A DNA stretch of 64,000 nucleotides, taken from contig NZ_CP041063.1 in NCBI RefSeq assembly GCF_011082085.1, positions 3,582,001 to 3,646,000 of the forward strand. The letters run 5' to 3'. The notes beneath the pieces are model-generated. The model worked only from the letters and a program-made list of their open reading frames with translations. It searched no databases and was not told the DNA's origin. Shown piece by piece: positions 3,268 through 43,880 of the stretch (positions within the stretch are counted from its first letter, which is position 1; every line of letters begins with the position of its first letter). Source of the DNA: Bacillus sp. Cs-700. GTDB taxonomy: Bacteria; Bacillota; Bacilli; Bacillales; Guptibacillaceae. The translations under genes and the position numbers were made by a program.

Positions 3268-3472
3268 CCATACACTTTTTTGCAATATGACGGTAACATC
3301 CATGATGAGCATTTTTCTCTAAGGAATTTGCTCTTTTTTTAGGTTGTTTTTGGGTGGGTTAAACAACCAGATAAACGTGATCAAAAGAAACTTACCTCTA
3401 CATTACGGTGTTCCTCAGTTGGAATGAAACTTGCATAATAGTTTGATAACAATGAAAAAGGGAGTGTGGAAG

Positions 3473-8677: not shown

Positions 8678-9478
8678 ATGAATAACTGGAGAAGGCGATT
8701 GAAACACCTTTATCGTTTTATTATCGATCGACCCTACAAGCCGCAGTTTCTAATTGCTAATCAATATGACGTGAAGCGTGTTATTGGGATGGGAAGTTAC
8801 GGAATAACGTATCTCTGTCAAAATAAAAAAACGAGAGAGCGTTGTGTCGTAAAGCAAATACGTCCAAGTAAACTGAAAAACAGTGACACTTCTTTCTATC
8901 AAATGGAGGCAGAGATACTGGCTTCTTTAGACCATGTTCGTATTCCTAAGCTCCATGATGCTTTTCTTTTTAACAGGAATCAGTTTTTAGTAATGGACTA
9001 CATTGAGGGTGTGAACCTCGAAGACCTTCTGTTTGATCAATACAATCAATTCAATGAACTGGAATCTCTCGAGTTTCTTAAAGGTTTGACCGATATTGTA
9101 GCTTATTTACATAAGCACGAGATCAGTCATGGTGATCTCCGAATACCAAATGTGATAGTAAAAAACGCTCAGCTTTATGTTATTGATTTTGGATTAGCCG
9201 TCTCATTGAAAGATAAGTCAGATCAGCAGGCGCTTGAGCTCATTCAAAAGGATTTATACGATCTAGGTGATTTTCTACTCTTCTTGCTTTACTCTTCTTA
9301 CGATCCAACCAGTAGAAAAGACCGTCCATGGACAGAAGAACTAACCATTCATCCCGCTACGGAACATTTCATAAAGCGACTGCTGCAGATTGAGACTAAA
9401 TTTGAAAGTATCGATCAGGTTCGCGATCATCTTCATCAAACAATAAGTATCATTCCTAATAATAAATCCAGCACCTGA
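8678..9478 (+). CDS. Ser/Thr protein kinase-like protein (YbdM type)
   Basis: A 266-residue, single-domain Hanks-type kinase without transmembrane or PASTA domains. Visible motifs: glycine loop GMGSYG, the VVKQ lysine, catalytic loop HGDLRIPN and metal-binding DFG (VIDFGLAV). The catalytic loop has Gly in place of the Arg of HRD and Arg in place of the usual Lys, while Asp and Asn are kept, so it is probably active but atypical. Size resembles B. subtilis YbdM. The ribosome-binding site is weak (GGGGTAAGG). It is monocistronic with a strong terminator overlapping its end. Confidence 0.82.
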   Translation: MNNWRRRLKHLYRFIIDRPYKPQFLIANQYDVKRVIGMGSYGITYLCQNKKTRERCVVKQIRPSKLKNSDTSFYQMEAEILASLDHVRIPKLHDAFLFNRNQFLVMDYIEGVNLEDLLFDQYNQFNELESLEFLKGLTDIVAYLHKHEISHGDLRIPNVIVKNAQLYVIDFGLAVSLKDKSDQQALELIQKDLYDLGDFLLFLLYSSYDPTSRKDRPWTEELTIHPATEHFIKRLLQIETKFESIDQVRDHLHQTISIIPNNKSST

Positions 9479-27847: not shown

Positions 27848-30097
27848 ATGCCAGTATTTATTAATGAAGAAAATCTTCAGTTTCATCTGCAAGGAAAAGA
27901 GCTCAGCTATGTGTTTCACGTAATGAAAAATGGTCAGCTTGGTCAGCTTTATTTTGGAAAAAAGTTACGTGACCGAGCTGATTTTAGTCATCTATCAAAA
28001 AAAGAGGCGAGAGTGGCGTCTTCGTATGTGTATGAAGATGACCCAACTTTTTCACTAGATTTAATCAAACAGGAATATCCGGGGTACGGCACGTCAGACT
28101 ATCGAGAGCCTGCTTTTCAAATCGAGCATCCGGATGGAAGCCGCATTTCAAATTTTACTTATCAATCGTATGAACTTGTGAAAGGAAAGCCAAGTCTATC
28201 AGGTTTACCTGCCACATATGTAGAAGATGAATCAGAAGCAGATACGTTAGTGATCCATTTGCATGATTCGTCTATGAATCTCTCACTTTCTTTAATGTAC
28301 TCGGTGTATCACGAGCGGAATGTCATGATTCGTTCGGCTGCATTTACGAATAAAGGTGATCGTGATCATGTGATCAAGCGAGCACACAGTGCTTCTGTGG
28401 ATTTTCCGGATGCAGATTTTGGTATGATGCAGCTTTCAGGTTCGTGGTCGAGAGAGCGACACGTTCATGAACGACAACTTAGCCCAGGTTTGCAAAGCAT
28501 TCAAAGTACACGTGGAACGAGCAGTGCACAGCACAACCCGTTTCTTGCTTTAAAAAGACCGATGACAACAGAACATGCGGGAGAAGTTTATGGCTTTAGC
28601 TTCGTTTATAGCGGGAATTTCCAGGCGCAGGTTGAGGTTGATCATTACGAGACAGCGAGAGTGACGATGGGAATTAATCCATTTGATTTTTCTTGGGTGC
28701 TCCAAAGTGGTGAAACATTTCAAACACCAGAAGTTGTGATGGCATATTCAAAACATGGGTTAAATGATCTCAGCCAAACGTATCATGATCTTTATCGCTC
28801 TCGTCTTGCTCGAGGAAAGTGGCGTGATGCTGAACGCCCGGTGTTACTAAACAACTGGGAGGCCACGTATTTCGATTTTAATGAGGAAAAATTATTGAGC
28901 ATTGCGAAACAAGCAAAGGAAACTGGTGTCGAGCTGTTTGTGTTAGATGATGGATGGTTCGGGAAACGAAATGACGATCGGAGTTCTCTCGGTGACTGGT
29001 TTGTGGATTCAACGAAGCTCCCAAAAGGGCTATCAAGTCTCGCGTCTAAAATGAGTGATCTGGGATTATTGTTCGGGCTCTGGTTTGAACCTGAAATGGT
29101 ATCGAAAGAGAGCGAACTGTACAAAAAGCATCCAGAGTGGGTCATTCAAGTGCCTGGAAGATCAAAATCGGTTGGGCGCCATCAGCTTGTGCTTGATTTT
29201 TCCAATCCCAAAGTTGTCGATTATATCTATGAGCAGATGGCAACGATTTTAAAAGAAGCAAACATTGATTATGTGAAATGGGATATGAATCGCTATATGA
29301 CGGAAATCGGCTCCCTTTCTTTGATGAAAAATCAGCAGGCAGAAGTACCGCACCGGTATATTTTAGGCGTATATGCGTTGTATGAACGCTTAATTGAATC
29401 CTTCCCACATGTGCTGTTTGAATCGTGTGCCAGTGGTGGAGCGAGGTTTGATCCAGGAATGCTTTATTATGCTCCGCAGGCGTGGACGAGTGATGATACA
29501 GATGCTGTTGAACGATTGAGCATTCAATACGGAACGTCTATGGTTTATCCTATCAGCAGTATGGGGGCGCATGTTTCAGCTGTTCCGAATCATCAAGTAA
29601 AGCGGATTACGTCGCTAGAGACAAGGGCAAATGTGGCTTATTTTGGTGCCTTTGGCTATGAGCTTGACGTCACGAAGATGAGTGATGCTGAGCTTACTAC
29701 AATGACTGAGCAAATCAACTGGTATAAAGAAAACCGTGCGCTTCTTCAATATGGAACATTTTACCGCTTAATCAGTCCATTCGATGGAAAAGGCAATGTG
29801 ACAAGCTGGATGAGTGTGTCAGCTGATCGAAAGAAAGCGATCGTTGGGTATTATCAAGTGCTAGCTGAGGCCAATCCATCGTTTAAGCGATTGTATGTAA
29901 AAGGACTCGATCCGGAAAAAGAATATGAAGTAAGTGGCTATGAAAGAACGTATTATGGAGACGAGCTTATGAGCGCTGGTATTCAACTACCAGGCGAGTA
30001 TGATGGATCACAAACAGGTGGACTAGAAGAATCAGGAGATTTTTCTTCTTATGTCTTTGTGATATCGGAGCATAACGATAGGGGAGAAGCAAGATGA
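27848..30097 (+). CDS. GH36 alpha-galactosidase
   Basis: A 749-residue cytosolic enzyme, the usual length for bacterial GH36 (AgaN/RafA type), that releases galactose from melibiose, raffinose and related oligosaccharides. Motifs: FVLDDGWFGKRNDD, nucleophile Asp in YVKWDMNRYM, ESCASGGARFDPGML and acid/base Asp in WTSDDTDAVERL. ATG 27848 is chosen because GGAGGG sits 6 nt upstream; the frame is open further up to 27758, but that stretch holds the promoter and cre. First gene of a three-gene operon with overlapping stops and starts (galK overlaps by 4 bp). Confidence 0.94.
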   Translation: MPVFINEENLQFHLQGKELSYVFHVMKNGQLGQLYFGKKLRDRADFSHLSKKEARVASSYVYEDDPTFSLDLIKQEYPGYGTSDYREPAFQIEHPDGSRISNFTYQSYELVKGKPSLSGLPATYVEDESEADTLVIHLHDSSMNLSLSLMYSVYHERNVMIRSAAFTNKGDRDHVIKRAHSASVDFPDADFGMMQLSGSWSRERHVHERQLSPGLQSIQSTRGTSSAQHNPFLALKRPMTTEHAGEVYGFSFVYSGNFQAQVEVDHYETARVTMGINPFDFSWVLQSGETFQTPEVVMAYSKHGLNDLSQTYHDLYRSRLARGKWRDAERPVLLNNWEATYFDFNEEKLLSIAKQAKETGVELFVLDDGWFGKRNDDRSSLGDWFVDSTKLPKGLSSLASKMSDLGLLFGLWFEPEMVSKESELYKKHPEWVIQVPGRSKSVGRHQLVLDFSNPKVVDYIYEQMATILKEANIDYVKWDMNRYMTEIGSLSLMKNQQAEVPHRYILGVYALYERLIESFPHVLFESCASGGARFDPGMLYYAPQAWTSDDTDAVERLSIQYGTSMVYPISSMGAHVSAVPNHQVKRITSLETRANVAYFGAFGYELDVTKMSDAELTTMTEQINWYKENRALLQYGTFYRLISPFDGKGNVTSWMSVSADRKKAIVGYYQVLAEANPSFKRLYVKGLDPEKEYEVSGYERTYYGDELMSAGIQLPGEYDGSQTGGLEESGDFSSYVFVISEHNDRGEAR

Positions 30098-31263
30098 AAG
30101 AACTGAAACAGACATTTAACGAACAGTTTGGAGAAGAAGGAGAAAAAGCGCTCTTTTTTGCACCGGGGCGAGTGAATTTGATTGGTGAACATACGGATTA
30201 TAATGGCGGGCATGTCTTTCCTTGTGCGTTAAGTGTTGGCACGTATGCCGTGGCACGAAAGCGAGAGGATCAGAAAATCCGGTTCTATTCGATGAATTTT
30301 CCTAATCAGGGAATCATTGAAACATCAGTAGACTCCCTTTTGTATAAGGAGCAAGATGATTGGGCCAATTATCCGAAAGGTGTAATTGCTCTTTTTCAGA
30401 AGGCAGGTTATACGATTCCAAGCGGACTAGATCTTGCATTCTATGGCAATATTCCTAATGGAGCGGGACTATCTTCATCAGCATCGATTGAGCTAGTCAC
30501 ATCGGTTGTTCTAAGAGATCTTTTTGGTCTTTCCGTTGGTATGGTTGAAATGGTGAAGCTTTCTCAACGAGCAGAGAATGAATTTGTAGGTGTGAACTGC
30601 GGCATTATGGACCAGTTTGCGATTGGCATGGGGGAAAAAGATCATGCCATTTTACTTAACTGTGACACGCTTCATTATAAGCAAACGCCGATTAAGTTAG
30701 AGAGCCATGCGTTGATTATTGCGAATACAAACAAGCGAAGAGGGCTAGCGGATTCCAAATACAATGAACGCAGGAATCAGTGCGAAGAGGCTCTTAAAGC
30801 CTTGCAGCAAGTGCTTCCGATTGACACGTTAGGTGATGTGACGGAAGAGCAGTTCAATACTTATCAGCATGTAATTCGAGATGAGGAAACGAGGAAACGT
30901 GCTCGTCATGCAGTTTATGAAAATCGTCGCACAATGAAAGCAGTAGATTTTCTAAATGAAGGAAATGTTGAAGCTTTTGGTCAGCTAATGAATGAATCTC
31001 ATGTTTCACTGCGTGACGATTATGAAGTAACCGGCAAAGAATTAGATACGATGGTAGAAGCCGCCTGGGAAGAAGGAGCTGTGGGGTCAAGAATGACTGG
31101 CGCTGGCTTTGGAGGTTGTACGATTAGTATCGTGAAAAAAGGTCACATCCAGTCTTTTATTACTCTTGTTGGAGAGACATACACAAAGAAAACCGGTCTT
31201 GAAGCGGATTTCTATGTCGTTGAAATAGGCGATGGTGCTCATAAGGTGGAGGACTTTGCATGA
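30094..31263 (+). CDS. galK: Galactokinase
   Basis: A 389-residue GHMP kinase that phosphorylates galactose to galactose-1-phosphate (Leloir pathway). All three motifs are present: RVNLIGEHTDYNGG (sugar binding), NGAGLSSSASIE (ATP loop) and GSRMTGAGFGGCTISIV near the C-terminus; catalytic Asp is likely in CGIMDQFAIGMG. It overlaps the GH36 stop by 4 bp and the galT start by 4 bp, implying translational coupling. It uses the galactose released by GH36 and imported by the SSS symporter. Confidence 0.96.
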   Translation: MKELKQTFNEQFGEEGEKALFFAPGRVNLIGEHTDYNGGHVFPCALSVGTYAVARKREDQKIRFYSMNFPNQGIIETSVDSLLYKEQDDWANYPKGVIALFQKAGYTIPSGLDLAFYGNIPNGAGLSSSASIELVTSVVLRDLFGLSVGMVEMVKLSQRAENEFVGVNCGIMDQFAIGMGEKDHAILLNCDTLHYKQTPIKLESHALIIANTNKRRGLADSKYNERRNQCEEALKALQQVLPIDTLGDVTEEQFNTYQHVIRDEETRKRARHAVYENRRTMKAVDFLNEGNVEAFGQLMNESHVSLRDDYEVTGKELDTMVEAAWEEGAVGSRMTGAGFGGCTISIVKKGHIQSFITLVGETYTKKTGLEADFYVVEIGDGAHKVEDFA

Positions 31264-32768
31264 TTTATTTAGAAATCGAACGACTTATTCAATATGGATT
31301 GCAAAAGCAAATGATCTCAGAATATGATGTTGATTACGTTCGAAACTCTCTTTTTCACCTTTTTGAGCTCGATGGAACAGAATCATTGCCTTCACCTCCA
31401 GAAGAGCAAATCGACACGCCAACGTCTATTCTTGAAAAGATGCTTGATTATGCTGTTGTAGAGGGATTAATGGAAGAAAACACGATAACAGAGCGCGATT
31501 TGTTTGATCCAAAGATTATGAATACATTCGTTCCGCGACCGTCCGAAATCGTCCGTGCGTTTTACGATCGCTATAAGCATAGCCCAATCGCGGCTACTGA
31601 CTTCTTCTATCAGCTATCAAAGGATTCGGATTACATTCGAACGAATCGCATCAGGAAAAACGTACACTGGTATAGTGAAACAGAATATGGTGATCTTGAA
31701 ATCACGATTAATCTCTCAAAGCCTGAGAAAGATCCTAAAGCGATTGCAGCGGCGAAAGCGAATACGTCTTCTTCTTATCCAAAATGCTTGCTCTGCAAGG
31801 AAAATGTCGGGTATGGCGGAAGACTTGATCATCCAGCACGCGATCAACATCGGATTATTCCAGTTAACCTTGAAGGAGAGAAGTGGTACCTGCAATACTC
31901 TCCATATGTTTACTACAATGAGCATGCGATTATTTTATCTGAACACCATCGCCCGATGACCATTTCGAAAGACGGGTTTGATCGACTGCTTCACTTTACC
32001 GAACAGTTTCCACATTATTTTATCGGTAGCAATGCAGATCTTCCAATTGTCGGAGGATCGATTTTAAGTCATGATCATTTCCAGGGAGGACATCATGAAT
32101 TTCCGATGGCGAAAGCTGAGATCCAAGAGGAAGTTCAGCTCGAGAGATATGCCGGGGTAACGGTTGGGATCGTGAATTGGCCAATGTCCGTCATTCGGTT
32201 ACGAGGAAAGGACCGGAAGCGGATAACTGAACTTGCGAGTGAGATTCTAACTTTGTGGCGAGGTTATAGCGATCCTGAAGTTGATCTAATAGCCGAATCA
32301 AACGGTGAACCTCATAATACGATTACACCGATCGCAAGAAAACGTGATGACCAGTTTGAACTTGATCTCGTATTACGAAATAACAGAACGAACGAGGCGC
32401 ACCCGATGGGCATCTTCCATCCGCATGAAGAAGTGCACCATATTAAGAAAGAGAACATTGGTTTAATCGAAGTGATGGGACTTGCCGTTCTACCTGGAAG
32501 ACTTGTTGATGAAATGGACATTCTTGCGACTTATATCGAAAAAGAACAGCTTGACGAGGCACAACAGGATGAACGGATTGCAAAACATGTCCCCTGGGCG
32601 AAAAAGATCGTTGAACAACACAGTACAATGGAAAAGGAACAGATCCAAAACGTACTGAGAGATGAAATTGGTTTGAGGTTTTCGACGGTTTTAGAACATG
32701 CGGGAGTGTTTAAACGAGATGAAGCGGGACAAACGGCGTTTCGACGCTTTTTAAAACAAATGAATTAA
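31260..32768 (+). CDS. galT: Galactose-1-phosphate uridylyltransferase, Firmicutes type
   Basis: A 502-residue class-II GalT, similar in length to B. subtilis GalT and unrelated in detail to the short E. coli type. Conserved: YPKCLLCKENVGYGGR and SHDHFQGGHHEFPM, with the HxxGxxH-like catalytic histidine region. It exchanges UDP between UDP-glucose and galactose-1-phosphate. ATG overlaps the galK stop (ATGA). A hairpin follows. UDP-galactose epimerase (galE) is not in the window, so that step must be encoded elsewhere. Confidence 0.95.
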   Translation: MIYLEIERLIQYGLQKQMISEYDVDYVRNSLFHLFELDGTESLPSPPEEQIDTPTSILEKMLDYAVVEGLMEENTITERDLFDPKIMNTFVPRPSEIVRAFYDRYKHSPIAATDFFYQLSKDSDYIRTNRIRKNVHWYSETEYGDLEITINLSKPEKDPKAIAAAKANTSSSYPKCLLCKENVGYGGRLDHPARDQHRIIPVNLEGEKWYLQYSPYVYYNEHAIILSEHHRPMTISKDGFDRLLHFTEQFPHYFIGSNADLPIVGGSILSHDHFQGGHHEFPMAKAEIQEEVQLERYAGVTVGIVNWPMSVIRLRGKDRKRITELASEILTLWRGYSDPEVDLIAESNGEPHNTITPIARKRDDQFELDLVLRNNRTNEAHPMGIFHPHEEVHHIKKENIGLIEVMGLAVLPGRLVDEMDILATYIEKEQLDEAQQDERIAKHVPWAKKIVEQHSTMEKEQIQNVLRDEIGLRFSTVLEHAGVFKRDEAGQTAFRRFLKQMN

Positions 32769-32916: not shown

Positions 32917-34341
32917 ATGGATGAATTACTATATTTAAGCGTTTTCCTCATTTATACCATTGCCATTCTTATTCTAGGAAAGCATGGGTTTGACAAAACG
33001 GATGAATTGAAGGGGTATTTTCTAGCAGGAAGAAATCTTCCTTTGTTTCCAAGCGTGGCTTCCTTCTGTGCAACCTGGTTTAGTGCAGCCTCTTTACTTG
33101 GATTGCCAGGATTGATTTATGAGGGTGGGGTCTCCGTTATTTGGACGACGGCCATTGCCTGGTTACTTGGACTTATAGGTTTGTTTTTTCTTGCATCTAA
33201 ACTTTATACATATAACGTGGTCACCGTTCCGGAATTTTTTCTCGTGCGCTATGATTCAAAGCTTCTTCAAATTTGGGTCGGCATCATTCTGAGTGTGAGC
33301 TACCTTCTCTATGTTGTGATTCAAATTCGAGGGTTCGGGATTGTGGTTAGCCAGATGCTTGAAATTCCTTATACGGTTAGTGTGTTTTTAATTTATCTTT
33401 TCGTTCTCTACACGACGTTTGGCGGGCTTCACTCTGTAGCACGAACCGATATTTTTCACTTTTGCTTAATTCTCTTTGGAACCATTCTAGGTGCCGTTTT
33501 TATTGTTGGAGAAATTGGTGGGCTTGGTGAAATTACAAGTGGTCTTTCAGATTTAGACCAAAATGGATCGACAACTTATTTGGCGCTTTTTCCTGAAGGC
33601 GGCTTATCATTCTGGGCGTTGTTAAGTGCGTTCTTTTCGCTCGGACTTGGCGTTGCGGCGAATCCTCAATATGCGGTTCGTATTCTTTCTGCTCGCTCGA
33701 AACAGGTGGCGCTAAAAATGGTTGGTACCAGTACGGTTTTTCTTGTCCTCATCTATTTTTCGATTTTTGTGATTGGAATTGGGTCACGTGTGCTTGATCC
33801 TAGCGTTCCATTTACGAGTACAGATGAAATCTATCCGTTCATTATTGCTTATCTACTCGAAACACCGTTAAAAGGCGTATTGTTAATTAGCGTAGTCGCA
33901 GCTGCCATTTCAACAGCAAATTCACAGCTGTTGATCATGGCGACGAGCTTTGTCTATGATATCACGCTCCCTATACGGAAAAAGAAAGCCGTTGATCTCA
34001 AAGTGATTTCCTGGACGAGGTGGATGATTTTTATCTTTGCGACCTTTTCTCTTGTCATTGCTTTTACACCACCGCAGGGAATTGTCCAATTTAGTGGTCA
34101 CATTTGGGGAATTATTGCGGTGTCTTTGTTCTTTCCACTATATGGAGGTCTATATACGAACGTCGATCATCGTCAGGCACTTCTCTCGACATTTGGCGGA
34201 TTGATCACGTATGTACTGGCTTTCCTCCTTATCCCAAGTGCCCTACAGTCAGTGTATCATCCTGTTCTCCCTTCGCTTATCGTTGCAGGCATTCTTTTCT
34301 TTCTAAAAGGAAGGGGGCGATTAGATGCGTCACTCCATTGA
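32917..34341 (+). CDS. Sodium:solute symporter (SSS family), substrate unknown
   Basis: A 474-residue SSS transporter of the PutP/PanF-like branch with about 13 helices: ELKGYFLAGRNLPLFPSVAS, then VVAAAISTANSQLLIMATS (Na+ site region). The last 17 bp overlap the start of a sensor kinase gene, so the two are translated together; transporter-kinase pairing often means the transporter also helps sense its solute. GGGAGGGGA lies upstream. With the pxp operon downstream, an organic acid or amino-acid derivative is a reasonable substrate guess. Confidence 0.87.
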   Translation: MDELLYLSVFLIYTIAILILGKHGFDKTDELKGYFLAGRNLPLFPSVASFCATWFSAASLLGLPGLIYEGGVSVIWTTAIAWLLGLIGLFFLASKLYTYNVVTVPEFFLVRYDSKLLQIWVGIILSVSYLLYVVIQIRGFGIVVSQMLEIPYTVSVFLIYLFVLYTTFGGLHSVARTDIFHFCLILFGTILGAVFIVGEIGGLGEITSGLSDLDQNGSTTYLALFPEGGLSFWALLSAFFSLGLGVAANPQYAVRILSARSKQVALKMVGTSTVFLVLIYFSIFVIGIGSRVLDPSVPFTSTDEIYPFIIAYLLETPLKGVLLISVVAAAISTANSQLLIMATSFVYDITLPIRKKKAVDLKVISWTRWMIFIFATFSLVIAFTPPQGIVQFSGHIWGIIAVSLFFPLYGGLYTNVDHRQALLSTFGGLITYVLAFLLIPSALQSVYHPVLPSLIVAGILFFLKGRGRLDASLH

Positions 34342-36010
34342 ACGAAAGATTCTAGTGCCTTTCTTAATTATTGTACTCGTGCCGATTTTCATTATAGGTG
34401 CCGTCTCTATGTGGTCAAGTTATCAGTCAGAAAAGCAGTTAAAGCAGGCGACGGCTCAAGAACACTTAACGAGCCTTGGTCGGTATGCGGCGAAGCTTGA
34501 TGATCGTGTGAAAAGCGGGAGTATGGAGGAAGAAGAAGCCAAATCACTGATCAAAATCATGATTAATGAAACGAAGGGTTTGTACGTGGAAGAAGCCGAT
34601 GGCACCATTTCGTCTGAAGGAGAAGTTGTTCAAGCAAGTGAACTCGATTGGTATAATGGCGAAGCGAAAACGAGCTTTTTTACCGAAAGTACGGTGCTTA
34701 CAGAACAAATCGAGCAGTGGACTTGGACGCTTTACCAGCCGATGTCCTTTTCCTTTTATTCAGGTTCACTTCCTAATATTCAAAAATACACCCTTCTCAT
34801 CAGCATTTTTACTGGTGTGATTGCGGTTCAATTTACGATTATTCTTTCTTACCATCTTTCAAAGCCGATTAAGAGTTTAGCAACTTTTTGTAAAAGAATC
34901 GCGTTAGGCGAGAGAACGAAAGGCATAGAAATGAACGATAACCGAAAAGATGAGATCGGGGTTCTGTCGTCGTCGTTAAAAGATATGGTTGAAACGCTCG
35001 ATGAACGGAACGCTCAAATCGATAAAATTAAGAAGTTGAATGAGACGATTTTAAATAGCGTTCACGTTGGTATGGTGCTAGTGATTGAAGGTGCTGATTC
35101 CGTTTATAATGAAGCGGCTCAGACGATGATGAACGAAGATCCACTGTTAAAGGAACGGCTGAGCAAGCTAACGATTCATGAAACGAAAAGAAGAAGTGAG
35201 GAAATTTGGGATCATAAGCGGAAGGAAGAGAAAGTTTTCTATGCGGTGAGCTATAAAGTACTCGGTACGTCAGAAAAGCAGCGTTCGATTATTACCTTTG
35301 AAGACATCACACATCGTCGAAAATTAGAGCAACGCGTGGAACGAATGTCTCGACTTGCTTCATTAGGTGAGATGGCTTCTGGTATTGCCCACGAAATCCG
35401 TAACCCACTCGCAGGCATTAAAACAACGACGGAATTATTGACACGCAGGCTAGAGCTAACGAAGGATCAGCTTACTTTAACGGAGAATATGCTGCTGGAC
35501 ATTGACCGTGTGAATAAGATCATTACCAATATTCTGCAGTTTTCAAGGCCAATGGAAACGAACCCTTCTTTGTTAAAAGTAGATGAAACGCTCCATTCTC
35601 TCGTTTTACTCATGAAAACAATCGCCGATGAAAAGAATGTCGTTCTTCATCATTTTAAAAACGATACAGAAATCTTTGTGGATCGTGATCATCTCCGTCA
35701 GATTCTTTTAAACCTTATTTTAAATGGGATGAACGCGATGCCAGATGGGGGCGAACTGATTCTGTCAAGTTTTCAAAGAGAAAGTGACGTGACGATCATG
35801 ATAGCTGACACAGGTGTTGGAATGGAGGATACCGTTATGGAGAAAATTTTTGATCCATTTTATACAACGCGTGCAGAAGGAACGGGTCTTGGGCTATCAA
35901 TCGTTCATCAGTTAGTCGTTCAAAACAATGGGGAAATTGATGTAAAGAGTATACTTGGAAAAGGGACGGAGTTTTCAATCACATTTCCAACAGGAAGGGA
36001 GGAGACATAA
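34325..36010 (+). CDS. Sensor histidine kinase (NtrB/AtoS-like)
   Basis: A 561-residue membrane kinase. TM1 at about 10-30, an extracytoplasmic region of about 120 residues, TM2 at about 155-175, HAMP (about 176-230), a short PAS-like domain (about 240-330), HisKA with the phospho-acceptor H356 in ASGIAHEIRNPLAG, and HATPase_c (N box LNLILNGMNAMPDGG, G boxes ADTGVGMED and GTGLGLSIV). It overlaps the SSS transporter gene by 17 bp and abuts its response regulator with no gap (stop 36010, ATG 36011). Confidence 0.93.
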   Translation: MRHSIERKILVPFLIIVLVPIFIIGAVSMWSSYQSEKQLKQATAQEHLTSLGRYAAKLDDRVKSGSMEEEEAKSLIKIMINETKGLYVEEADGTISSEGEVVQASELDWYNGEAKTSFFTESTVLTEQIEQWTWTLYQPMSFSFYSGSLPNIQKYTLLISIFTGVIAVQFTIILSYHLSKPIKSLATFCKRIALGERTKGIEMNDNRKDEIGVLSSSLKDMVETLDERNAQIDKIKKLNETILNSVHVGMVLVIEGADSVYNEAAQTMMNEDPLLKERLSKLTIHETKRRSEEIWDHKRKEEKVFYAVSYKVLGTSEKQRSIITFEDITHRRKLEQRVERMSRLASLGEMASGIAHEIRNPLAGIKTTTELLTRRLELTKDQLTLTENMLLDIDRVNKIITNILQFSRPMETNPSLLKVDETLHSLVLLMKTIADEKNVVLHHFKNDTEIFVDRDHLRQILLNLILNGMNAMPDGGELILSSFQRESDVTIMIADTGVGMEDTVMEKIFDPFYTTRAEGTGLGLSIVHQLVVQNNGEIDVKSILGKGTEFSITFPTGREET

Positions 36011-37387
36011 ATGGCTGTCAAAGTAGGCATTATTGACGATGAAACAACGCTTCGCCTCACGCTCCAAATGTTTCTTGAAGATGAAGGATATGATGTGAGG
36101 GCAGCAGCAACGCTTGAAGAAGGATGGCACATGCTTGATGAATTTAGTCCGCATGTCCTTCTATTGGATATTCGCCTTCCTGATGGAAACGGGCTTGATT
36201 CGCTCCATGAATTTAAAGAACGCTACCCTGAAATGGCCGTGATGATGTTAACGGCGTATGGTGATGCAAAAACAGCCGTTCGCTCGATTAAAGAAGGTGC
36301 TTTTGATTATTTAACGAAGCCTTTTGAGTTAGAAGAGCTAAAGATCATCCTTCAAAAATGGATTAAACAGCACCATCTTGAGAAGGAAGTCGAGCGTTAC
36401 CGAGAGGAAGAGCGACGGACGAAACTTGTTCAGATGATCGGTGAAAGTAAGCAAATGCATGAGTTAAAAGATAAAATTTCCTTAATCTCAGAAAGTAATG
36501 ATACGACGGTTTTAGTTCGAGGCGAGACAGGTACAGGCAAAGAGCTTGTGGCAAGAAGCATTCATCAGCAAAGTAAGCGTCATGAAGGACCGTTTGTTGC
36601 CGTGAATTGTGCAAGTATTCCAGCAGACTTAATTGAAATGGAACTTTTCGGTCGAGAAAAAAATGGTGTGACGGAGCAAGCGAACCCCAAAGTTGGTTTA
36701 ATGGAGTGGGCAGATGGAGGGACATTGTTTCTTGATGAAATTGGAGATCTTTCACTCGATATTCAAGTGAAACTTCTTCGTTTTCTTGAGGATAAGAAAA
36801 TCAAGCGAATCGGTAGCGTACATGATATTGAGATTGATGTGCGCGTCATTGCTGCAACCAATCGATCGCTCGAGGAAATGATTCAAGAGAAGACGTTTCG
36901 ATCCGATCTCTATTATCGATTAAATGTTGTACCAGTAAAACTAACGCCGCTTCGAGAGCGAGGCGACGATATTATCATGCTAACCGAACATTTTCTCCAC
37001 GAATTCTGTCAGCAAATGAGAAAAGAAAAACCATCACTACGGGCTGACGCCAAAAAACGGTTAGTGAGCTACGACTGGCCAGGGAATGTACGGGAACTGA
37101 AGAATACGATTGAACGAATCGCCATTCTCCACCAGGAGAAAGAGCTTGCTGCGTATCACTTTGATTTTCTAAACCCGGTTGAAGGTCACGTAGAAGGAGC
37201 GAAATCAGTTGATGACGTCGTCTTCGATGATCGCTTCTCATTAGAAGATCATATTGAAGCGATTGAAAAGAAATACATTGAGAAAGCCATTCAAGAAGCG
37301 AAGTGGAATATTACGCAGGCAAGTAAGTTACTAGGGATGAGCCGGTACGCTCTTCAGCGCAGAATTGATAAATATGAGATAACATGA
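36011..37387 (+). CDS. NtrC-family response regulator lacking the GAFTGA motif
   Basis: A 458-residue regulator: receiver domain (phospho-acceptor D53 in LLLDIRLPDG), AAA+ domain with Walker A GETGTGKE (171-178) and Walker B GGTLFLDEIGD, and a C-terminal Fis HTH (NITQASKLLGMSRYALQRRI). At the loop that normally reads GAFTGA and contacts sigma-54, residues 218-223 are NGVTEQ. The rest of the ATPase, including R-finger region and WPGNVRELKN, is intact. It is therefore unlikely to activate sigma-54 polymerase and may act at sigma-70-type promoters or as a repressor. It precedes the pxp/acc operon. Confidence 0.92.
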   Translation: MAVKVGIIDDETTLRLTLQMFLEDEGYDVRAAATLEEGWHMLDEFSPHVLLLDIRLPDGNGLDSLHEFKERYPEMAVMMLTAYGDAKTAVRSIKEGAFDYLTKPFELEELKIILQKWIKQHHLEKEVERYREEERRTKLVQMIGESKQMHELKDKISLISESNDTTVLVRGETGTGKELVARSIHQQSKRHEGPFVAVNCASIPADLIEMELFGREKNGVTEQANPKVGLMEWADGGTLFLDEIGDLSLDIQVKLLRFLEDKKIKRIGSVHDIEIDVRVIAATNRSLEEMIQEKTFRSDLYYRLNVVPVKLTPLRERGDDIIMLTEHFLHEFCQQMRKEKPSLRADAKKRLVSYDWPGNVRELKNTIERIAILHQEKELAAYHFDFLNPVEGHVEGAKSVDDVVFDDRFSLEDHIEAIEKKYIEKAIQEAKWNITQASKLLGMSRYALQRRIDKYEIT

Positions 37388-37390: not shown

Positions 37391-37417
37391 AAACCGCCCG
37401 AAATGGGCGGTTTTTTT
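37391..37417 (+). terminator. Terminator of the two-component unit
   Basis: Perfect 9-bp arms AAACCGCCC (37391-37399) and GGGCGGTTT (37405-37413), followed by a T-run. Confidence 0.92.
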
Positions 37418-37526
37418 GTGCGAAATCTTATAAAATTATCTGAAAATTACGTGATATCGTAGAGGTAAGAGAAAAAACGCATCGATTCAAGCAAAGAATG
37501 AATCATATAGTAAAAGGGGGAATTTG

Positions 37527-38756
37527 ATGGGTATTGAAAAACAAAAGCCAACAGAGTTAGAGGGCGGTCCAACGAAAAGCAAGTGGGGCGTTATCCTCGG
37601 TGCCGCCTTCTTAATGGGCTCATCTGCAATCGGACCAGGCTTTTTAACACAAACGGCCGTCTTTACTGAGCAGCTACTCGCAAGTTTTGGATTTGTTATT
37701 TTAATGTCAATTATTTTAGATATTGGAGTTCAAGCGAACATCTGGCGGATTATTGCTGTTTCTAAGAGAAAAGGACAGGATATCGCAAACATGGTCGTAC
37801 CTGGACTTGGTTATTTTCTCGCATTTGCGGTAGCACTTGGTGGACTTGCTTTTAATATCGGGAATGTCGGTGGGGCTGGACTTGGTATGAACGTTCTCTT
37901 CGGCATTGATCCACGGATAGGCGCAGCGATTACCGGTGTGATTACAATCGGAATTTTCCTTTCGAAAGAAGCAGGAGTAGCGATGGATAAAATCGCACGA
38001 ATTCTCGGTGGGATCATGATTCTTCTTACATTGTACGTTGCTTTTCAAAGTAACCCACCAGTTGGCGATGCGATAGTTCATACATTCGCACCTGATAAAA
38101 TCGATGTCTTTGCGATTATTACACTTGTAGGTGGAACAGTAGGAGGATATATCACGTTTGCTGGTGGACACCGTTTACTTGATGCAGGTATTTCAGGTAA
38201 AGAGAATTTACACCAGGTAACGAAGAGCTCTGTTTCAGGTATTCTCATTGCTTCGATCATGCGCGTCTTTTTATTCCTAGCGGTGTTAGGTGTTGTCGCA
38301 ACAGGGTTTAAACTAGACCCGTCAAACCCACCTGCTTCTGTTTTCCAACAAGCAGCTGGAGCTGTCGGATATAAAATGTTTGGCGTCGTTCTTTGGGCAG
38401 CAGGGATTACGTCAGTCGTTGGTGCGGCGTATACATCTGTTTCATTCCTTAGAACGTTGTCCAAAAAAGTGGATCGTCATCACTCAGGTGTAACGATCGG
38501 GTTTATCGCTGTATCAACGATCATCTTCGCATTTATCGGTAAGCCGGTTCTGTTACTGATCCTTGCCGGAGCTTTTAACGGATTGATTTTGCCTGTTGCA
38601 CTCGGAACGCTTCTTGTCGCAGCTTATAAAAAATCCATTGTCGGTGACTACAAACATCCGCTTTGGCTCACGATCTTTGGCGGTTTTGTTTTTCTGATTA
38701 CTGCTTACTTAGCGATCGTGACGCTAATTGATAAAGTACCACAGCTTTTTTCTTAA
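37527..38756 (+). CDS. NRAMP-like transporter of the 5-oxoproline cluster (YcsG type)
   Basis: A 409-residue protein with about 11 membrane helices, in the NRAMP superfamily branch of B. subtilis YcsG. The metal-binding DPGN motif of true NRAMP metal transporters is replaced by SSAIGPGFLTQT in helix 1, so a metal is an unlikely substrate. It is first in an operon with pxpB, pxpA and pxpC, and YcsG is linked to the same genes in B. subtilis, which suggests uptake of 5-oxoproline or a related compound. AAAGGGGG is 6 nt before ATG 37527. Confidence 0.85.
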   Translation: MGIEKQKPTELEGGPTKSKWGVILGAAFLMGSSAIGPGFLTQTAVFTEQLLASFGFVILMSIILDIGVQANIWRIIAVSKRKGQDIANMVVPGLGYFLAFAVALGGLAFNIGNVGGAGLGMNVLFGIDPRIGAAITGVITIGIFLSKEAGVAMDKIARILGGIMILLTLYVAFQSNPPVGDAIVHTFAPDKIDVFAIITLVGGTVGGYITFAGGHRLLDAGISGKENLHQVTKSSVSGILIASIMRVFLFLAVLGVVATGFKLDPSNPPASVFQQAAGAVGYKMFGVVLWAAGITSVVGAAYTSVSFLRTLSKKVDRHHSGVTIGFIAVSTIIFAFIGKPVLLLILAGAFNGLILPVALGTLLVAAYKKSIVGDYKHPLWLTIFGGFVFLITAYLAIVTLIDKVPQLFS

Positions 38757-38774
38757 TGGTTAGGAGGAACATGT

Positions 38775-39518
38775 GTGAAACTTGATTATTACCCTCTTGG
38801 GGATACAGGCATTCAGCTTGTATTTGGCACCGAGATTTCAGAAGAAACGAATCGAAGAATTAGAATGTTTGCCGATGAGTTAGCGCAACATCCGATTGAC
38901 GGTGTTGTGGAATGGGTACCAGCGTATACCACATTAACGATCTACTATCTTCCAAATAAGATTTCATTCAACACGTTGAAAGAAAAGCTGGAAGAGATGG
39001 ACAAACAACATGGAAGAGAAGCAGATGCTGCTTCTCTTGTTTATATCATCCCAACCTATTATGGAGATGAAACTGGCGCAGATTTAGCGTATGTAGCGGA
39101 ACACAATGGATTGAGTGAAGAAGAAGTGATCTCGATTCACGCGAATAAAGATTATCTTATTTATATGATGGGATTTGTTCCGGGCTTTCCTTATTTAGGG
39201 GGAATGCCAGAAGAAATTGCAACGCCGAGGCGTGAAAACCCACGTGCCGAAATCGAGCCAGGATCTGTTGGGATAGCTGGCGCACAAACAGGTATCTATC
39301 CACTTGAATCGCCTGGAGGCTGGCAACTTATCGGACAAACTCCGTTGAAACTATATGACCCAACAGGAGAGCGACCGATTTTACTCGAGTCCGGTCATTA
39401 TTTGCGGTTTGTTCCGATTAGTAAAGAAGAGTTTTTAAACATAAAAGAAGCGATTAAACGTGGAGAGTATGAAGTCGAAACCGAAGAAAAGAAGGTGAGC
39501 GTTCATGAAGTCGGTTGA
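38775..39518 (+). CDS. pxpB: 5-oxoprolinase subunit PxpB (KipI family)
   Basis: A 247-residue KipI/allophanate-hydrolase-subunit-1 family protein. Signature FVPGFPYLGGMPEEIATPRR and GSVGIAGAQTGIYPLESPGGW are present. Established: bacterial PxpA, PxpB and PxpC together form an ATP-dependent 5-oxoprolinase (5-oxoproline to glutamate). The same fold makes half of the carboxyltransferase domain of urea carboxylase. The start is GTG 38775 behind AGGAGGAAC (ATG 38771 is out of frame). It overlaps pxpA by 14 bp. Confidence 0.93.
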   Translation: MKLDYYPLGDTGIQLVFGTEISEETNRRIRMFADELAQHPIDGVVEWVPAYTTLTIYYLPNKISFNTLKEKLEEMDKQHGREADAASLVYIIPTYYGDETGADLAYVAEHNGLSEEEVISIHANKDYLIYMMGFVPGFPYLGGMPEEIATPRRENPRAEIEPGSVGIAGAQTGIYPLESPGGWQLIGQTPLKLYDPTGERPILLESGHYLRFVPISKEEFLNIKEAIKRGEYEVETEEKKVSVHEVG

Positions 39519-40278
39519 TTTGAATAGCGACTTAGGAGAAAGCTTTGGGGCTTATAAGATAGGAAACGATGAGAATGTACTTGAATTTATTTCATCAGCG
39601 AACATCGCCTGTGGCTATCATGCAGGCGACCACAATGTGATGATGAAGACAGTGGCAGTAGCGAAAGATCTTGGCGTCAGTATTGGTGCACATCCGGGAT
39701 TTCCTGACCTTGGAGGATTCGGTAGGCGTGAGATGAAACTGCCACCTGAAGAGGTGTTCAACCTTGTTGCTTATCAGATTGGGGCCATTCAGGGTGTTGC
39801 GAATGTTCACCAAACAAAAGTCCACCATGTGAAACCGCACGGAGCCTTATATAATCTAGCAGCGAAAGATCCAGCCGTTGCAAAAGCGATTGCAAACGCT
39901 GTCTACGCAGTGGATCCAGAGTTGATTTTATATGGTTTAGCGGGGAGTGAACTCATTAAGGCAGGACGAGAGCGAGGGCTCACCGTTGCTCAGGAAGTTT
40001 TTGCAGATCGTTCGTATCAGCCTGACGGTACCCTAACTCCACGCTCAGAACCGAACGCCATGATTCACAATGCCGATCAAGCGGTTGAGCGTGTGATTCG
40101 CATGATCAATGAACAGCAGGTGAAAGCAGTTAATGGAGAAGATATTGCCATTCAAGCGGATACGATTTGTGTTCACGGGGATGAGCCTGAAGCTCTGCAG
40201 TTTGTTCAGCAGTTAAGAGAGCGACTCGTTAATGAAGGAATTCGCATTCAGCCGGTTGGAGTGAATGCCCATGTCTAA
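39505..40278 (+). CDS. pxpA: 5-oxoprolinase subunit PxpA (LamB/YcsF family)
   Basis: A 257-residue LamB/YcsF-family protein. The conserved N-terminal DLNSDLGESFGAY, ANIACGYHAGDHNVM and GAHPGFPDLGGFGRR, and the downstream HVKPHGALYN, are all intact; these contain the presumed metal/substrate His and Asp residues. PxpA is the subunit that opens the 5-oxoproline ring with PxpB and PxpC. It overlaps both neighbours (14 bp with pxpB, 8 bp with pxpC from ATG 40271), supporting co-translation of a complex. Confidence 0.94.
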   Translation: MKSVDLNSDLGESFGAYKIGNDENVLEFISSANIACGYHAGDHNVMMKTVAVAKDLGVSIGAHPGFPDLGGFGRREMKLPPEEVFNLVAYQIGAIQGVANVHQTKVHHVKPHGALYNLAAKDPAVAKAIANAVYAVDPELILYGLAGSELIKAGRERGLTVAQEVFADRSYQPDGTLTPRSEPNAMIHNADQAVERVIRMINEQQVKAVNGEDIAIQADTICVHGDEPEALQFVQQLRERLVNEGIRIQPVGVNAHV

Positions 40279-41221
40279 ACCAATTTTTAAAGTTCGAAAA
40301 TCTGGATTGCTTTCCACGATCCAGGATAGTGGAAGAAAAGGCTACCAACAATACGGAATTGTGGTTTCCGGTGCAATGGATCCTTTTTCAATGAACGTGG
40401 CGAACTTCCTTGTAGGAAACAAAGGAAATGAAGCCGTTCTTGAAATTACCGTTATGGGACCAGCCTTCGAGGTGCTTGATGATGCTGTGATTGCCATTTG
40501 CGGTGGTGATCTATCCCCAAAAGTGAATGGAGAAAAAGCACCAATGTGGAAAAGCTTTACTGTGAAGGAAGGCGATCGTCTGGAGTTTGGTCAGCCTCTC
40601 TCTGGTGCTCGTTCGTATATTAGTGTGGCAGGTGGTTATGATGTACCGCTTGTGATGGGGAGTAAGTCGACCTATTTGAAAGCTGGAATTGGCGGCGTCG
40701 AAGGACGAGCCCTTGTAAAAGGCGATGTGCTTCATACGACTGAAAAAATAAACGGAATCAGTGGACGTGCTCTTCATCCGGATGAAGTTCCTTCTTATAA
40801 AAAAGAATTAACCGTCCGAGTCGTACTTGGACCGCACCAGCATGCATTTACGGAGGAGGGGATTCAAACATTCCTTTCAACCCCATATGAGGTAACGCCT
40901 CAGTCCGATCGAATGGGCTTTCGTTTAAAAGGGGAAAAGGTGGAGCACGCAACGTCTGCTGATATCATTTCGGAAGCGATTCCGCTTGGCGGGATTCAGG
41001 TTCCGGCAAACGGTGATCCAATTATTCTGATGTCAGATCGACAAACAACCGGTGGCTATACGCGCATTGCCACGGTCATCTCAAGTGATATTCCGTATTT
41101 GGCGCAAGCGATGCCAGGTTGTACAATCCATTTTCGTGAAGTGACCGTTGAGGAAGCTCAGGAAGTATATGAAACGAATGATCGTTTTCTTCGAACGTTA
41201 GAAAAAGTATCTGTGAGATAA
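40271..41221 (+). CDS. pxpC: 5-oxoprolinase subunit PxpC (KipA family)
   Basis: A 316-residue KipA/allophanate-hydrolase-subunit-2 family protein; YGIVVSGAMDPFSMNVANF and GNEAVLEITVMGP mark the family. It pairs with PxpB in 5-oxoprolinase, and the KipA fold forms the other half of the urea-carboxylase carboxyltransferase domain. The start may be ATG 40265 or ATG 40271; GGAG at 40258-40261 fits the second better. A biotin carrier gene follows 14 bp after its stop. Confidence 0.92.
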   Translation: MSKPIFKVRKSGLLSTIQDSGRKGYQQYGIVVSGAMDPFSMNVANFLVGNKGNEAVLEITVMGPAFEVLDDAVIAICGGDLSPKVNGEKAPMWKSFTVKEGDRLEFGQPLSGARSYISVAGGYDVPLVMGSKSTYLKAGIGGVEGRALVKGDVLHTTEKINGISGRALHPDEVPSYKKELTVRVVLGPHQHAFTEEGIQTFLSTPYEVTPQSDRMGFRLKGEKVEHATSADIISEAIPLGGIQVPANGDPIILMSDRQTTGGYTRIATVISSDIPYLAQAMPGCTIHFREVTVEEAQEVYETNDRFLRTLEKVSVR

Positions 41222-41235
41222 AGGGAGGACACTGC

Positions 41236-41709
41236 ATGTTAAGTTCAAAAGAAATTATTGAGATTATTAAATATGTCGATGGGTCAACAGTTGATGAAGT
41301 CCATTACGAGCATGATAGCTTTGTCGTTAAGGTGAAAAATCAAAATCCGGAGGGTGAGAAAAGCGAACCCCAGGAAGCTAAAGCGCAGGTTCCAACCGCT
41401 GTTGCTGAGCGAGGACAGGAGGATCTAACTCCTGAGGTGGAGGCGCCGAAGGAGATGCCTACACCTGAAGCACACACGGTGAAAGCACCTATGGTTGGCA
41501 TGTTCTATTCATCCCCTTCTCCAGATGATCCAGCTTTTATTCAAGTAGGGGATGCGGTGAAGGAAGAAACGGTTGTTTGTTGTCTGGAAGCGATGAAAAT
41601 GTTTAATGATGTGCACGCAGATGTGAACGGTGAAATCACTGAAATTTTAGTAGAAAACGGAGATCTTGTAGAATTTGGCCAACCACTCTTTACTGTAAAA
41701 CCAGAATAG
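41236..41709 (+). CDS. accB: Biotin carboxyl carrier protein (accessory AccB)
   Basis: A 157-residue BCCP: N-terminal [17 protein letters not shown] region, a Pro/Glu/Ala-rich linker (about 38-80), and a C-terminal biotinyl domain with the biotinylation site EAMKM (K121) preceded by two cysteines ([11 protein letters not shown]). GGGAGG precedes the ATG. It lies inside the pxp operon, 14 bp after pxpC and 11 bp before the biotin carboxylase, so it is not the usual accBC fatty-acid pair. No accA or accD is nearby. Confidence 0.92.
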
Positions 41710-41720
41710 GAGGGAATCAG

Positions 41721-43076
41721 ATGGGGATCAAAAAAGTACTAATCGCAAATCGCGGCGAAATTGCTGTACGCATTATTCGCGCCTGTCACGAGCTGGATTT
41801 AACTGCCGTCGCCGTCTATTCTGAAGCGGATCGTGATGCCTTGCATGTGCAATTAGCGGATGAAAGTTATTGTATCGGCCCAACATCTTCTAGCGATAGC
41901 TACTTAAACGTAGGGAATATCATGACAATTGCTACGAATAGTGGCGTTGATGCCATTCATCCTGGCTACGGTTTTCTTGCTGAAAATGCGGACTTTGCTG
42001 AGATGTGTGAGGATTGTAACCTTGCGTTTATCGGTCCAAACAAAGCATCCATTCGTCAAATGGGAATCAAGGATGTGGCGAGAAAGACAATGCAAGATGC
42101 GAACGTTCCGGTCGTTCCAGGTTCAAAGGGCATTATTTCAAGTAAAGAAGAAGCGCTTGAACTGGCAGGTGAAATGGGATTCCCTGTCATTATTAAAGCA
42201 ACAGCCGGTGGTGGCGGTAAAGGGATTCGCGTTGTAAGAGAAGAAGAGGAACTAATCAAAGCGATTAACATGACCCAGCAGGAAGCGGAAAAGGCATTCG
42301 GTAATCCTGGAGTGTATATGGAGAAGTTTATCGAGAATTTTCGTCATATTGAAATTCAAGTTCTGGCGGATCTTTATGGCAACGTGATTCACCTCGGGGA
42401 GCGCGACTGCTCGATTCAAAGACGGATGCAAAAGCTTGTGGAGGAAACCCCATCTCCAGCTTTAACGGCATCGATTCGATCCGAAATGGGGGAAGCCGCT
42501 GTACGAGCAGCGAAGGCGGTAAACTATGCTGGTGCTGGAACAGTTGAATTTATTTATGATCAGGATGGAAACTATTATTTTATGGAAATGAATACGCGCA
42601 TTCAGGTCGAACATCCTGTTACAGAAATGGTGACCGGTGTTGATTTAATTAAAAAACAAATCAAAATCGCTGATGGTGAGCGACTATCTCTCACGCAAGC
42701 CGAAGTAGAGATGAGCGGCTGGGCAATTGAATGTCGTATTAATGCCGAAGACCCAGATAATGGCTTTATGCCTTCACCCGGTAAAGTTAAAACGTATCTC
42801 CCACCAGGTGGCTTTGGCGTTCGAGTAGATTCGGCCGTTTATCCAGGATATGTGATCCCCCCATTCTATGATTCGATGGTAGCGAAGCTGATTACATACG
42901 GCGCAACTCGGACAGAAGCGATACAGCGGATGAAGCGTGCGCTCAGTGAATTTAAAATCGAAGGCGTGAAAACAACGATTCCGTTTCATCAGAGATTATT
43001 CAACCATGAGAAGTTTGTAGAAGGTGATTTTAATACGAAGTTTCTTGAAATCTATGAACTAAAGGAGATGGTGTAA
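41721..43076 (+). CDS. accC: Biotin carboxylase (accessory AccC)
   Basis: A 451-residue ATP-grasp biotin carboxylase. Landmarks: [37 protein letters not shown], the glycine-rich [12 protein letters not shown], the catalytic [18 protein letters not shown] and the C-terminal domain. It carboxylates biotin on the adjacent carrier with bicarbonate and ATP. Full length, so it is a functional stand-alone subunit. The only candidate carboxyltransferase in the operon is PxpB/PxpC. The stop codon overlaps the DUF1445 start (TAATG). Confidence 0.94.
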
Positions 43077-43831
43077 TGGAAACTCCTCAAATACAACGAC
43101 TAAAGTATCGCGACAATCTTGAGAGTGGGACAACCTCAGGCGTATGTGATGGTTACTTGCAGGCAAATATGATTACGCTTCCTTCAAAATACGCTTTCGA
43201 ATTTCTCCTTTTTTGTCAGCGAAACCCGAAGCCCTGTCCGATTGTTGATGTCCTTGAAGCAGGTCAGGTTAAGCCTCGAATTGCCGATGCAGATATTCGA
43301 ACAGATCTTCCGAAATACCGCATCTACAAAAACGGAGAGTTGGAGAAGGAACCGCTTGATCTTAAGGAGGTCTGGCAAGATGACTTTGTCACCTTTCTAT
43401 TAGGATGTAGCTTTACGTTTGAAAAAGCGCTCGTTGAACGAGGCATTAGCTTATTACATCAGGAAATGGGTCTCGTTGTACCAATGTATCAAACAAACAT
43501 TCCTTGCGAAGAAGCGGGGCAGTTTAACGGGAATATGGTCGTCAGCATGAGAGCGATTCGAAAAGAAGAGCTTGATGAAACCATTGCGATTACATCAAAG
43601 TTTCCAAATGCGCACGGGGCACCTATCCACGTTGGTCATCCTTCTGAGATTGGAATTCAAAACATTGAAAGACCAGATTACGGAGAATTTCCTCCTTATG
43701 ATGAAGAAGAACGCATCCCTGTGTTCTGGGCGTGCGGGGTCACACCTCAATATGTGGGCTTGAATGTAAAACCTGAGATCATGATCACGCATGCGCCGGG
43801 GCATATGCTGATTACAGATCAAAAAGAATAG
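43076..43831 (+). CDS. DUF1445 protein, YcsI-like putative hydro-lyase
   Basis: A 251-residue DUF1445 protein (annotated 'putative hydro-lyase' in many genomes; YcsI in B. subtilis). Typical stretches: SGTTSGVCDGYLQANMITLP, YRIYKNGELEKEP and FLLGCSFTFEKAL, then HVGHPSEIGI. Mammalian DGLUCY, with the same domain, cyclises D-glutamate to 5-oxo-D-proline, which fits a 5-oxoproline operon. The start overlaps the accC stop. It is the last gene before a terminator. Confidence 0.9.
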   Translation: METPQIQRLKYRDNLESGTTSGVCDGYLQANMITLPSKYAFEFLLFCQRNPKPCPIVDVLEAGQVKPRIADADIRTDLPKYRIYKNGELEKEPLDLKEVWQDDFVTFLLGCSFTFEKALVERGISLLHQEMGLVVPMYQTNIPCEEAGQFNGNMVVSMRAIRKEELDETIAITSKFPNAHGAPIHVGHPSEIGIQNIERPDYGEFPPYDEEERIPVFWACGVTPQYVGLNVKPEIMITHAPGHMLITDQKE

Positions 43832-43836: not shown

Positions 43837-43880
43837 AGCCGTTTAGTCGGGGGCCGCTTCTGACTGAACGGCTTTTTTTT
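43837..43880 (+). terminator. Terminator of the pxp/acc operon
   Basis: AGCCGTTTAGTC (43837-43848) pairs with GACTGAACGGCT (43862-43873) with one mismatch; eight T follow. Confidence 0.9.

Follow-up and report, generated by a model that had tools for sequence, protein, structure and literature searches.

Why should an operon of the 5-oxoprolinase type contain the genes of a biotin enzyme? The question is raised by seven genes of Bacillus sp. Cs-700, in the order ycsG-pxpB-pxpA-pxpC-accB-accC-DUF1445 and all on the plus strand, at 37524..43831 of the window (the whole stretch of 64,000 nucleotides that was analysed), in which the PxpA, PxpB and PxpC gene set of the PxpABC 5-oxoprolinase is complete and is followed by a biotin carboxyl carrier protein (BCCP, here AccB2) and a biotin carboxylase (BC, here AccC2). 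The association of accBC with pxp genes is real and recurrent, and not incidental. As to its meaning, our confidence falls a little short of even in the reading developed below, according to which this PxpABC operon would have a dedicated accBC pair behind pxpC, derived from housekeeping genes, and AccBC would feed PxpBC the carboxyl with which a lactam is activated.

An extra accBC pair behind pxpC

The seven genes are spaced like a single operon: pxpB/pxpA, pxpA/pxpC and accC/DUF1445 overlap, 14 bp separate pxpC from accB and 11 bp separate accB from accC, and Pfam and NCBIfam are concordant for 7/7 genes (Table 1). A sequence-only reading of this DNA had described seven packed plus-strand genes, and all were found at that place with families that match; its carrier with an EAMKM motif and its full biotin carboxylase are likewise borne out, since AccB2 and AccC2 pass their family cut-offs, the biotin attachment residue Lys121 (codon 41596-41598) lies in the motif, and AccC2 is identical at 12 positions with all 76 aligned BC rows, position 236 being variable. 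These 12 positions and position 236 we take to be active-site residues. By equivalog cut-offs, biotin lysine and BC active site, the two proteins would pass for the BC and BCCP of an acetyl-CoA carboxylase. PxpC passes the broader model TIGR00724 and stays below the NCBIfam equivalog NF045499 (276.5 bits against a cut-off of 500); as this cut-off may fit only close kin of the E. coli PxpC, the operon is classed here as PxpABC-type and not as a proven 5-oxoprolinase. The start codon of ycsG could be either TTG 37524 or ATG 37527.

Whether this is the only accBC pair was a point that the sequence-only reading had left to the rest of the genome. A canonical accB-accC lies at 1070288-1072122 of the 4.30 Mb genome, so that the operon pair is an extra one, and the possibility that it is the sole pair is ruled out. 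A recent duplication is ruled out as well, given the identity between operon and canonical copies (75.3% for AccC2, 42.6% for AccB2) and an AccC2 clade that spans 13 genomes. The statement that no accA or accD is present is right for the operon itself, but not for the genome, where accD/accA-type matches occur at 1431848-1433256, together with three further carboxyltransferases; additional BC matches are located at 148613 and at 119335, the latter within a 1150-residue open frame that is probably pyruvate carboxylase. The genome also has a second pxpB-pxpA-pxpC set at ~2.51 Mb (locus L045, 7829-10253), without accBC within its 19 kb stretch.

Table 1. Genes of the operon and terminator-like sites at its two ends (positions in the window)
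Feature	Position	Strand	Product	Families and remarks
terminator-like stem (CCGCCC / GGGCGG) + T run	~37393..37417	+		between response-regulator gene and operon; by eye; unlisted on + by the terminator scan
ycsG / pxpT-like NRAMP-family transporter	37524..38756	+	410 aa	PF01566 Nramp
pxpB (KipI)	38775..39518	+	247 aa	TIGR00370 over cut-off; CT_C_D PF02682; Arg152 codon 39228-39230
pxpA (LamB/YcsF)	39505..40278	+	257 aa	LamB_YcsF PF03746; NF003814 over cut-off
pxpC (KipA)	40265..41221	+	318 aa	CT_A_B PF02626; TIGR00724 over cut-off; Gln245
accB2 (biotin carboxyl carrier protein)	41236..41709	+	157 aa	Biotin_lipoyl PF00364; TIGR00531 BCCP over cut-off
accC2 (biotin carboxylase)	41721..43076	+	451 aa	TIGR00514 accC over cut-off, 779.8 bits
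DUF1445 / D-glutamate cyclase family	43076..43831	+	251 aa	PF07286 D-Glu_cyclase; NF003969 over cut-off
terminator-like stem-loop + T run, operon end	43837..43873	+		17-pair stem 3' of DUF1445; consensus match only

Recurrence of the association

The genus comparison was drawn from 61 genomes, 14 of them of the genus, including the source genome. A second AccB of the window type is found in 13 of the 14, and the same 13 have the gene order of the window in common; the exception is G211. This genome is nested inside the genus on the PxpB+PxpC tree and the AccC of the other 13 form one clade, so that a loss of accBC in G211 is the simplest reading. At the position of its relatives' accBC, G211 has a 230-bp stretch that contains a GC-rich, repeat-like sequence (L207, ~8785-9016). 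The ratio of non-synonymous to synonymous differences (pN/pS) over five genus pairs is 0.05-0.13 for accC and 0.13-0.28 for accB, and 0.036 for the canonical accC (G000 against G211), ratios that are rough, as pS is near saturation for most genus pairs; judged by them, the operon accC evolves faster than the housekeeping accC but under purifying selection. The closest PxpC beyond the genus (G151, G223) have no accBC in the stretches examined.

To describe the wider distribution, an operon is called unlinked where a phmmer search of the stretch examined gives neither an accB at up to 4.5 kb from pxpB nor an accC at up to 5.5 kb (the flanks being only 1.5 kb for loci L333-L361), and PxpB is called R-type or K-type according to whether it has Arg, as in the window, or Lys at the column of Lys1605 of urea carboxylase. 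The set comprises 233 PxpB rows, open reading frames (ORFs) above 420 aa being excluded: 185 unlinked R-type rows and one more that is gapped, 36 linked R-type and 11 linked K-type. Among the matches listed in a PxpC alignment search (80 named genome loci), accB or accC is near in 14 of 82 PxpB rows, namely two of Sporomusa, Alkalihalobacillus BA299, Bacillus FJAT-44742, Faecalispora, Eubacterium ER2, Clostridium brassicae, and seven more titled Lachnospiraceae, Mediterraneibacter, Pelethocola, Oscillospiraceae or Clostridiales. Linked R-type operons also occur in plasmid records of lactobacilli, Microvirga and Bradyrhizobium, and K-type ones in those of haloarchaea. The place of the carrier gene is nearly constant, the distance between pxpC and accB being -43 to +49 bp in 32 of the 36 linked R-type rows (13 of the 36 being the genus itself); the remaining four are a fusion in Faecalispora, Clostridium brassicae, with accB only and 2 kb from pxpC, and two alphaproteobacteria, in which the record annotation places a BCCP right behind pxpC that phmmer missed in both.

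Three of these loci deserve description in their own right. The alphaproteobacterial plasmid operons (L366, 3524-8174; L367, 4818-9566) have two different BCCP genes around pxpB-pxpC, in addition to accC and pxpA, and on a mobilizable Lactiplantibacillus plasmid (L362, 5256-11530) a pxp-accBC-DUF1445-ycsG cluster stands between transposase genes, with accB-accC behind pxpC as in the window, but with a different gene order and an AccC placed elsewhere on the tree.

In the tree of 76 AccC rows, the window clade (13 AccC) has three canonical AccC from its family as sister group (support 96/93), and the label "pxp-linked R-type" needs 7 changes, 4 of them forced by starred branches; on the PxpB+PxpC tree, made by a quick method with 104 of the 224 rows that have a usable PxpC (41 linked, 63/183 unlinked; six near-identical genus rows dropped), the linked label needs 11 changes, 7 of them forced by starred branches. 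Either gain or loss may underlie such a change, and there are long branches among the rows. A single clade of all 35 R-type pxp-linked AccC, a set defined by gene context, is rejected (approximately unbiased test, p 0.0024), as is a clade that joins the genus with six further rows of Bacillota, a grouping chosen once the tree was known (p 0.0008). One ancient pxp-type accBC inherited by all linked operons is thus rejected by the first of these tests. On these topologies, the linkage of accBC with pxp arose repeatedly by independent captures, and the window operon captured a copy of the housekeeping accB-accC directly behind pxpC.

In Faecalispora jeddahensis (G252, locus L236, 9979-11346) the two partners are joined in one protein of 455 aa, with PF02626 at 27-286 and PF00364 at 382-453, whose gene lies between an unfused pxpC and accC; in G601, of the same family, there is an intact fusion, 70% identical to it and with accC next. 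The BCCP part is the most constrained between the two (82.5% identity, pN/pS 0.156, against 68.6% and 0.357 for the PxpC part). An uninterrupted full-length fusion was found only in G252 itself in a class survey (291 genomes, 33 with a match; that of G429 over 5-455, with two stops, consists of neighbouring genes) and in G252 and G601 in a family survey (200 genomes, 19 with a match), and L236 alone, 1 of 237 PxpC ORFs in the set, has a C-terminal BCCP. The fusion in two genomes points to a physical coupling of PxpC and carrier. Because the captures are independent and at the same position, and because PxpC and BCCP have been fused, a chance association is very unlikely. Some distance behind the fusion operon of G252 (L236, 3' of 12824) there is a small further biotin-carrier-like ORF, and in the same area of G601 a weak match with stops.

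What the biotin genes could do for PxpBC

The three subunits are those of the known PxpABC 5-oxoprolinases (B. subtilis ycsF-kipI-kipA, E. coli ybgJKL, C. glutamicum pxpTABC), with ycsG, and in many loci DUF1445, adjoining; E. coli pxpBCA has no accBC next to it, in contrast to the window operon. The C. glutamicum homologue of the ycsG transporter is reported to be needed for growth on 5-oxoproline (PMC13274462), and the B. subtilis homologue to be a Mn2+ importer (PMC10448178). Urea and guanidine carboxylases have the same domains, BC, BCCP, CT_A_B and CT_C_D, in one chain, whereas those of the window are on separate chains, and PxpA stands where urea carboxylase systems have allophanate hydrolase.

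In the reading that we prefer, AccC2 would spend ATP and bicarbonate to carboxylate the biotin on AccB2, and PxpB and PxpC, a pair with the carboxyltransferase (CT) fold, would receive the carboxyl from AccB2. With it PxpBC would activate a lactam, that of 5-oxoproline or a close relative, the 5-oxoproline being the L form, or the D form supplied by the DUF1445 cyclase. Ring opening by PxpA would then yield glutamate and CO2. There is a precedent for this as a proposal, a lactim carboxyester being one of three mechanisms weighed for caprolactamase (PMC8453981). If so, some prokaryotic 5-oxoprolinases would be biotin enzymes, in which R-type PxpBC carboxylates the lactam, PxpA opens the ring and CO2 is released, built several times and with the BCCP fused in Faecalispora and a relative; this wider claim is advanced only tentatively, as on balance doubtful.

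A good number of observations weigh against such a mechanism. Lys1605 of K. lactis urea amidolyase is the likely CT base (PMC5770610), and Asp1584 and residue 1330 serve as CT markers (PMC11410670). The sequence-only reading had proposed comparing PxpB and PxpC with such residues, and they do not match: by alignment and count, K1605, D1584 and N1330 (D1330 in guanidine carboxylase) correspond to PxpB Arg152, PxpB Phe134 and PxpC Gln245, the Lys1605 column being possibly off by one in one alignment table, with Arg at both 152 and 153 in the window and K-type rows aligned ungapped. Arg occupies this column in all 221 readable R-type PxpB, linked (36) and unlinked (185) alike. The window, moreover, keeps 105/105 of the residues that are at least 97% conserved in unlinked PxpA, PxpB and PxpC (26 in PxpB, 38 in PxpC, 41 in PxpA), and G211 likewise departs at 0/105; among these near-invariant columns none splits linked from unlinked PxpABC across lineages. 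Since the window PxpABC retains all the near-invariant residues of accBC-free operons, a changed mechanism is not written in its sequence, and since the conserved residues are intact, the classical ATP-driven PxpBC route is probably still possible. G211 lacks accBC and yet keeps pxpABC and DUF1445, with 230 bp between pxpC and DUF1445, and the linked form is rare, being found in 3 of the 87 R-type rows (and in 8 K-type rows besides) of a Bacilli sample of 97 stretches, taken from the 150 of 200 class genomes with a match. From the literature, co-purified PxpB and PxpC are cited as hydrolysing ATP (PMC8453981), and the description of pxpTABC, which C. glutamicum needs for growth on 5-oxoproline, includes neither accB nor accC (PMC13274462), unlike the window operon. 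Even the fusion is double-edged: in G252 and G601 every BCCP falls short of the TIGR00531 cut-off, with the fused protein scoring best (94.0 and 91.8 bits) and the others no higher than 58.2 and 56.1 bits, a second AccC is absent from G252 at E 1e-90 or better, and accD/accA-type matches exist in both genomes, so that the fused carrier may have a part in fatty-acid synthesis as well. Our confidence is held near one half by three things: PxpABC has its residues intact, Arg replaces Lys, and G211 is without accBC. Thus, of the biotin-dependent carboxylase of five proteins that the sequence-only reading had envisaged, the association stands, being conserved, repeated and in places fused, while PxpB and PxpC as a CT of the urea carboxylase type do not, by their residues.

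Two kinds of biotin-linked operon can be told apart by these residues. One encodes the K-type split enzyme, which by its Lys is closer to urea carboxylase; the other, the R-type, includes that of the window. Lys is present in 11/11 K-type rows, which form one clade with support 100, and in three urea carboxylases, and in 0/185 of the unlinked readable PxpB rows; Asp1584 is missing in the K-type also. The K-type loci, six of Bacilli (L052, L054, L071, L106, L122, L209) and two on haloarchaeal plasmids (L364, L365), are like the window in having PxpB-like, PxpC-like and BCCP genes together, with BC near in 4/8 and PxpA in 7/8, and unlike it in the retained Lys, a BCCP of 78-98 aa and PxpB-like ORFs of 271-357 aa; these characters mark the K-type as a split, carboxylase-like enzyme of its own, with PxpA adjoining in most loci, and no name for it was found. 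Three of the loci (L052, L054, L122) have two PxpB-PxpC pairs and one BCCP. The window is ruled out as a K-type enzyme by its Arg at the 1605 column and its position outside the K clade, and as a urea carboxylase by Arg152, Phe134 and Gln245; the urea carboxylase model TIGR02712 is not reached (best chain AccC, 546 against 1303.85 bits), at a cut-off that a split enzyme could not reach.

The main rival to a carboxyl-fed PxpBC is that AccB2-AccC2 are a second half of acetyl-CoA carboxylase, partnering the genomic AccA/AccD under the control of a 5-oxoproline/glutamate operon. We hold this to be unlikely, but several observations favour it: both proteins exceed the BCCP and AccC equivalog cut-offs and are closest to the canonical AccC of the family, possible accD/accA partners exist in the genome, and in the fusion genomes no BCCP matches better than the fused one. 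In S. aureus, a six-gene operon that is a target of CcpE has pxpBCA and accBC together as in the window (compared by description only), and its authors interpret the accBC as fatty-acid synthesis (PMC11315280), while elsewhere the two carrier genes of this species are treated as two Acc alleles, whose two bands could not be told apart (PMC12642757). What this explanation does not predict is the repeated capture right behind pxpC, nor the fusion with PxpC, and among 16 genomes 0 of 46 carboxyltransferase (PF01039) matches come closer than 50 kb to a pxp-linked accC; these genomes were also searched for one that has pxp-linked BC/BCCP and lacks a PF01039 carboxyltransferase, but such a match is present in 16/16. 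The S. aureus accC SAUSA300_1563 is presumably the pxp-linked copy. A transposon mutant of SAUSA300_1563 is among screened mutants (PMC8944730), which also speaks against an isozyme.

Another possibility is a biotin-dependent carboxylase made up of AccBC and PxpBC that acts on some other lactam, amide or imide, the second PxpBAC set being the one that hydrolyses 5-oxoproline. A second PxpC is indeed present in 14/14 genus genomes, that of the source genome within the accBC-free pxpBAC set, linked and unlinked pxpBC pairs stand side by side in the two Sporomusa loci, and PxpB of three linked lineages (Eubacterium ER2, BA299, and the two alphaproteobacterial plasmids) departs at 5-11 of the 26 conserved positions, the median of unlinked rows being 0 and their maximum 9. 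In the window, however, it is not the linked set but the unlinked paralogue (L045) that departs, at 3/38 conserved PxpC and 1/41 PxpA columns, and G215 has a linked PxpC only; we regard this explanation as improbable. Least probable of all, and hardly to be credited, is that accBC are incidental neighbours that hitch-hiked into the operon and are now being lost, an explanation that would accommodate G211, with its intact pxpABC and no accBC, the absence of accBC from 84/87 R-type rows of the Bacilli sample, and the faster evolution of AccC2 relative to the canonical AccC, but that meets with the retention of accBC in 13/14 genus genomes, the purifying selection in the five compared pairs, and the same-position captures and fusion, which make chance very unlikely.

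In the literature, no proposal of a biotin-dependent 5-oxoprolinase was found by title or beginning of abstract, in a search made mostly among freely available papers. An extra BCCP/BC pair and pxpBC of L. pentosus are given as separate findings (PMC12427679), and split UCT genes have been noted with no function given (PMC3199775). In PMC13274462 the assumption is that 5-oxoproline is phosphorylated by PxpBC and its ring opened by PxpA; the use of ATP by PxpBC on the lactam is given there as no more than an assumption. A recurrent biotin-linked form beside a biotin-free form with the same residues would offer a direct way of asking what this fold does. If a carboxyl-fed PxpBC is true, the fatty-acid role ascribed to accBC copies of this kind in S. 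aureus and L. pentosus would have to be corrected, and biotin would have a new use in nitrogen metabolism.

Flanks of the operon and other genes of the window

Directly 5' of the operon (32917-37387) there are genes for a sodium:solute symporter, a histidine kinase and an NtrC/AtoC-like response regulator, a trio found at that place in 14/14 genus genomes, with shorter ORFs in G207. A simple pattern for a sigma-54 motif gave no match 5' of ycsG in the window and the relatives scanned; the GC-rich stem 5' of ycsG is also present in the genus relatives. The terminator scan of the stretch gave 11 terminator-like sites, against 6.2 in shuffles. Further away, the window contains a cyanophycinase-family protein that is over its cut-off (3431-4801), a penicillin-binding protein most like enterococcal PBP4(5), below the cut-off of that family (19179-21179), and the genes of galactokinase and galactose-1-phosphate uridylyltransferase (30094-32768).

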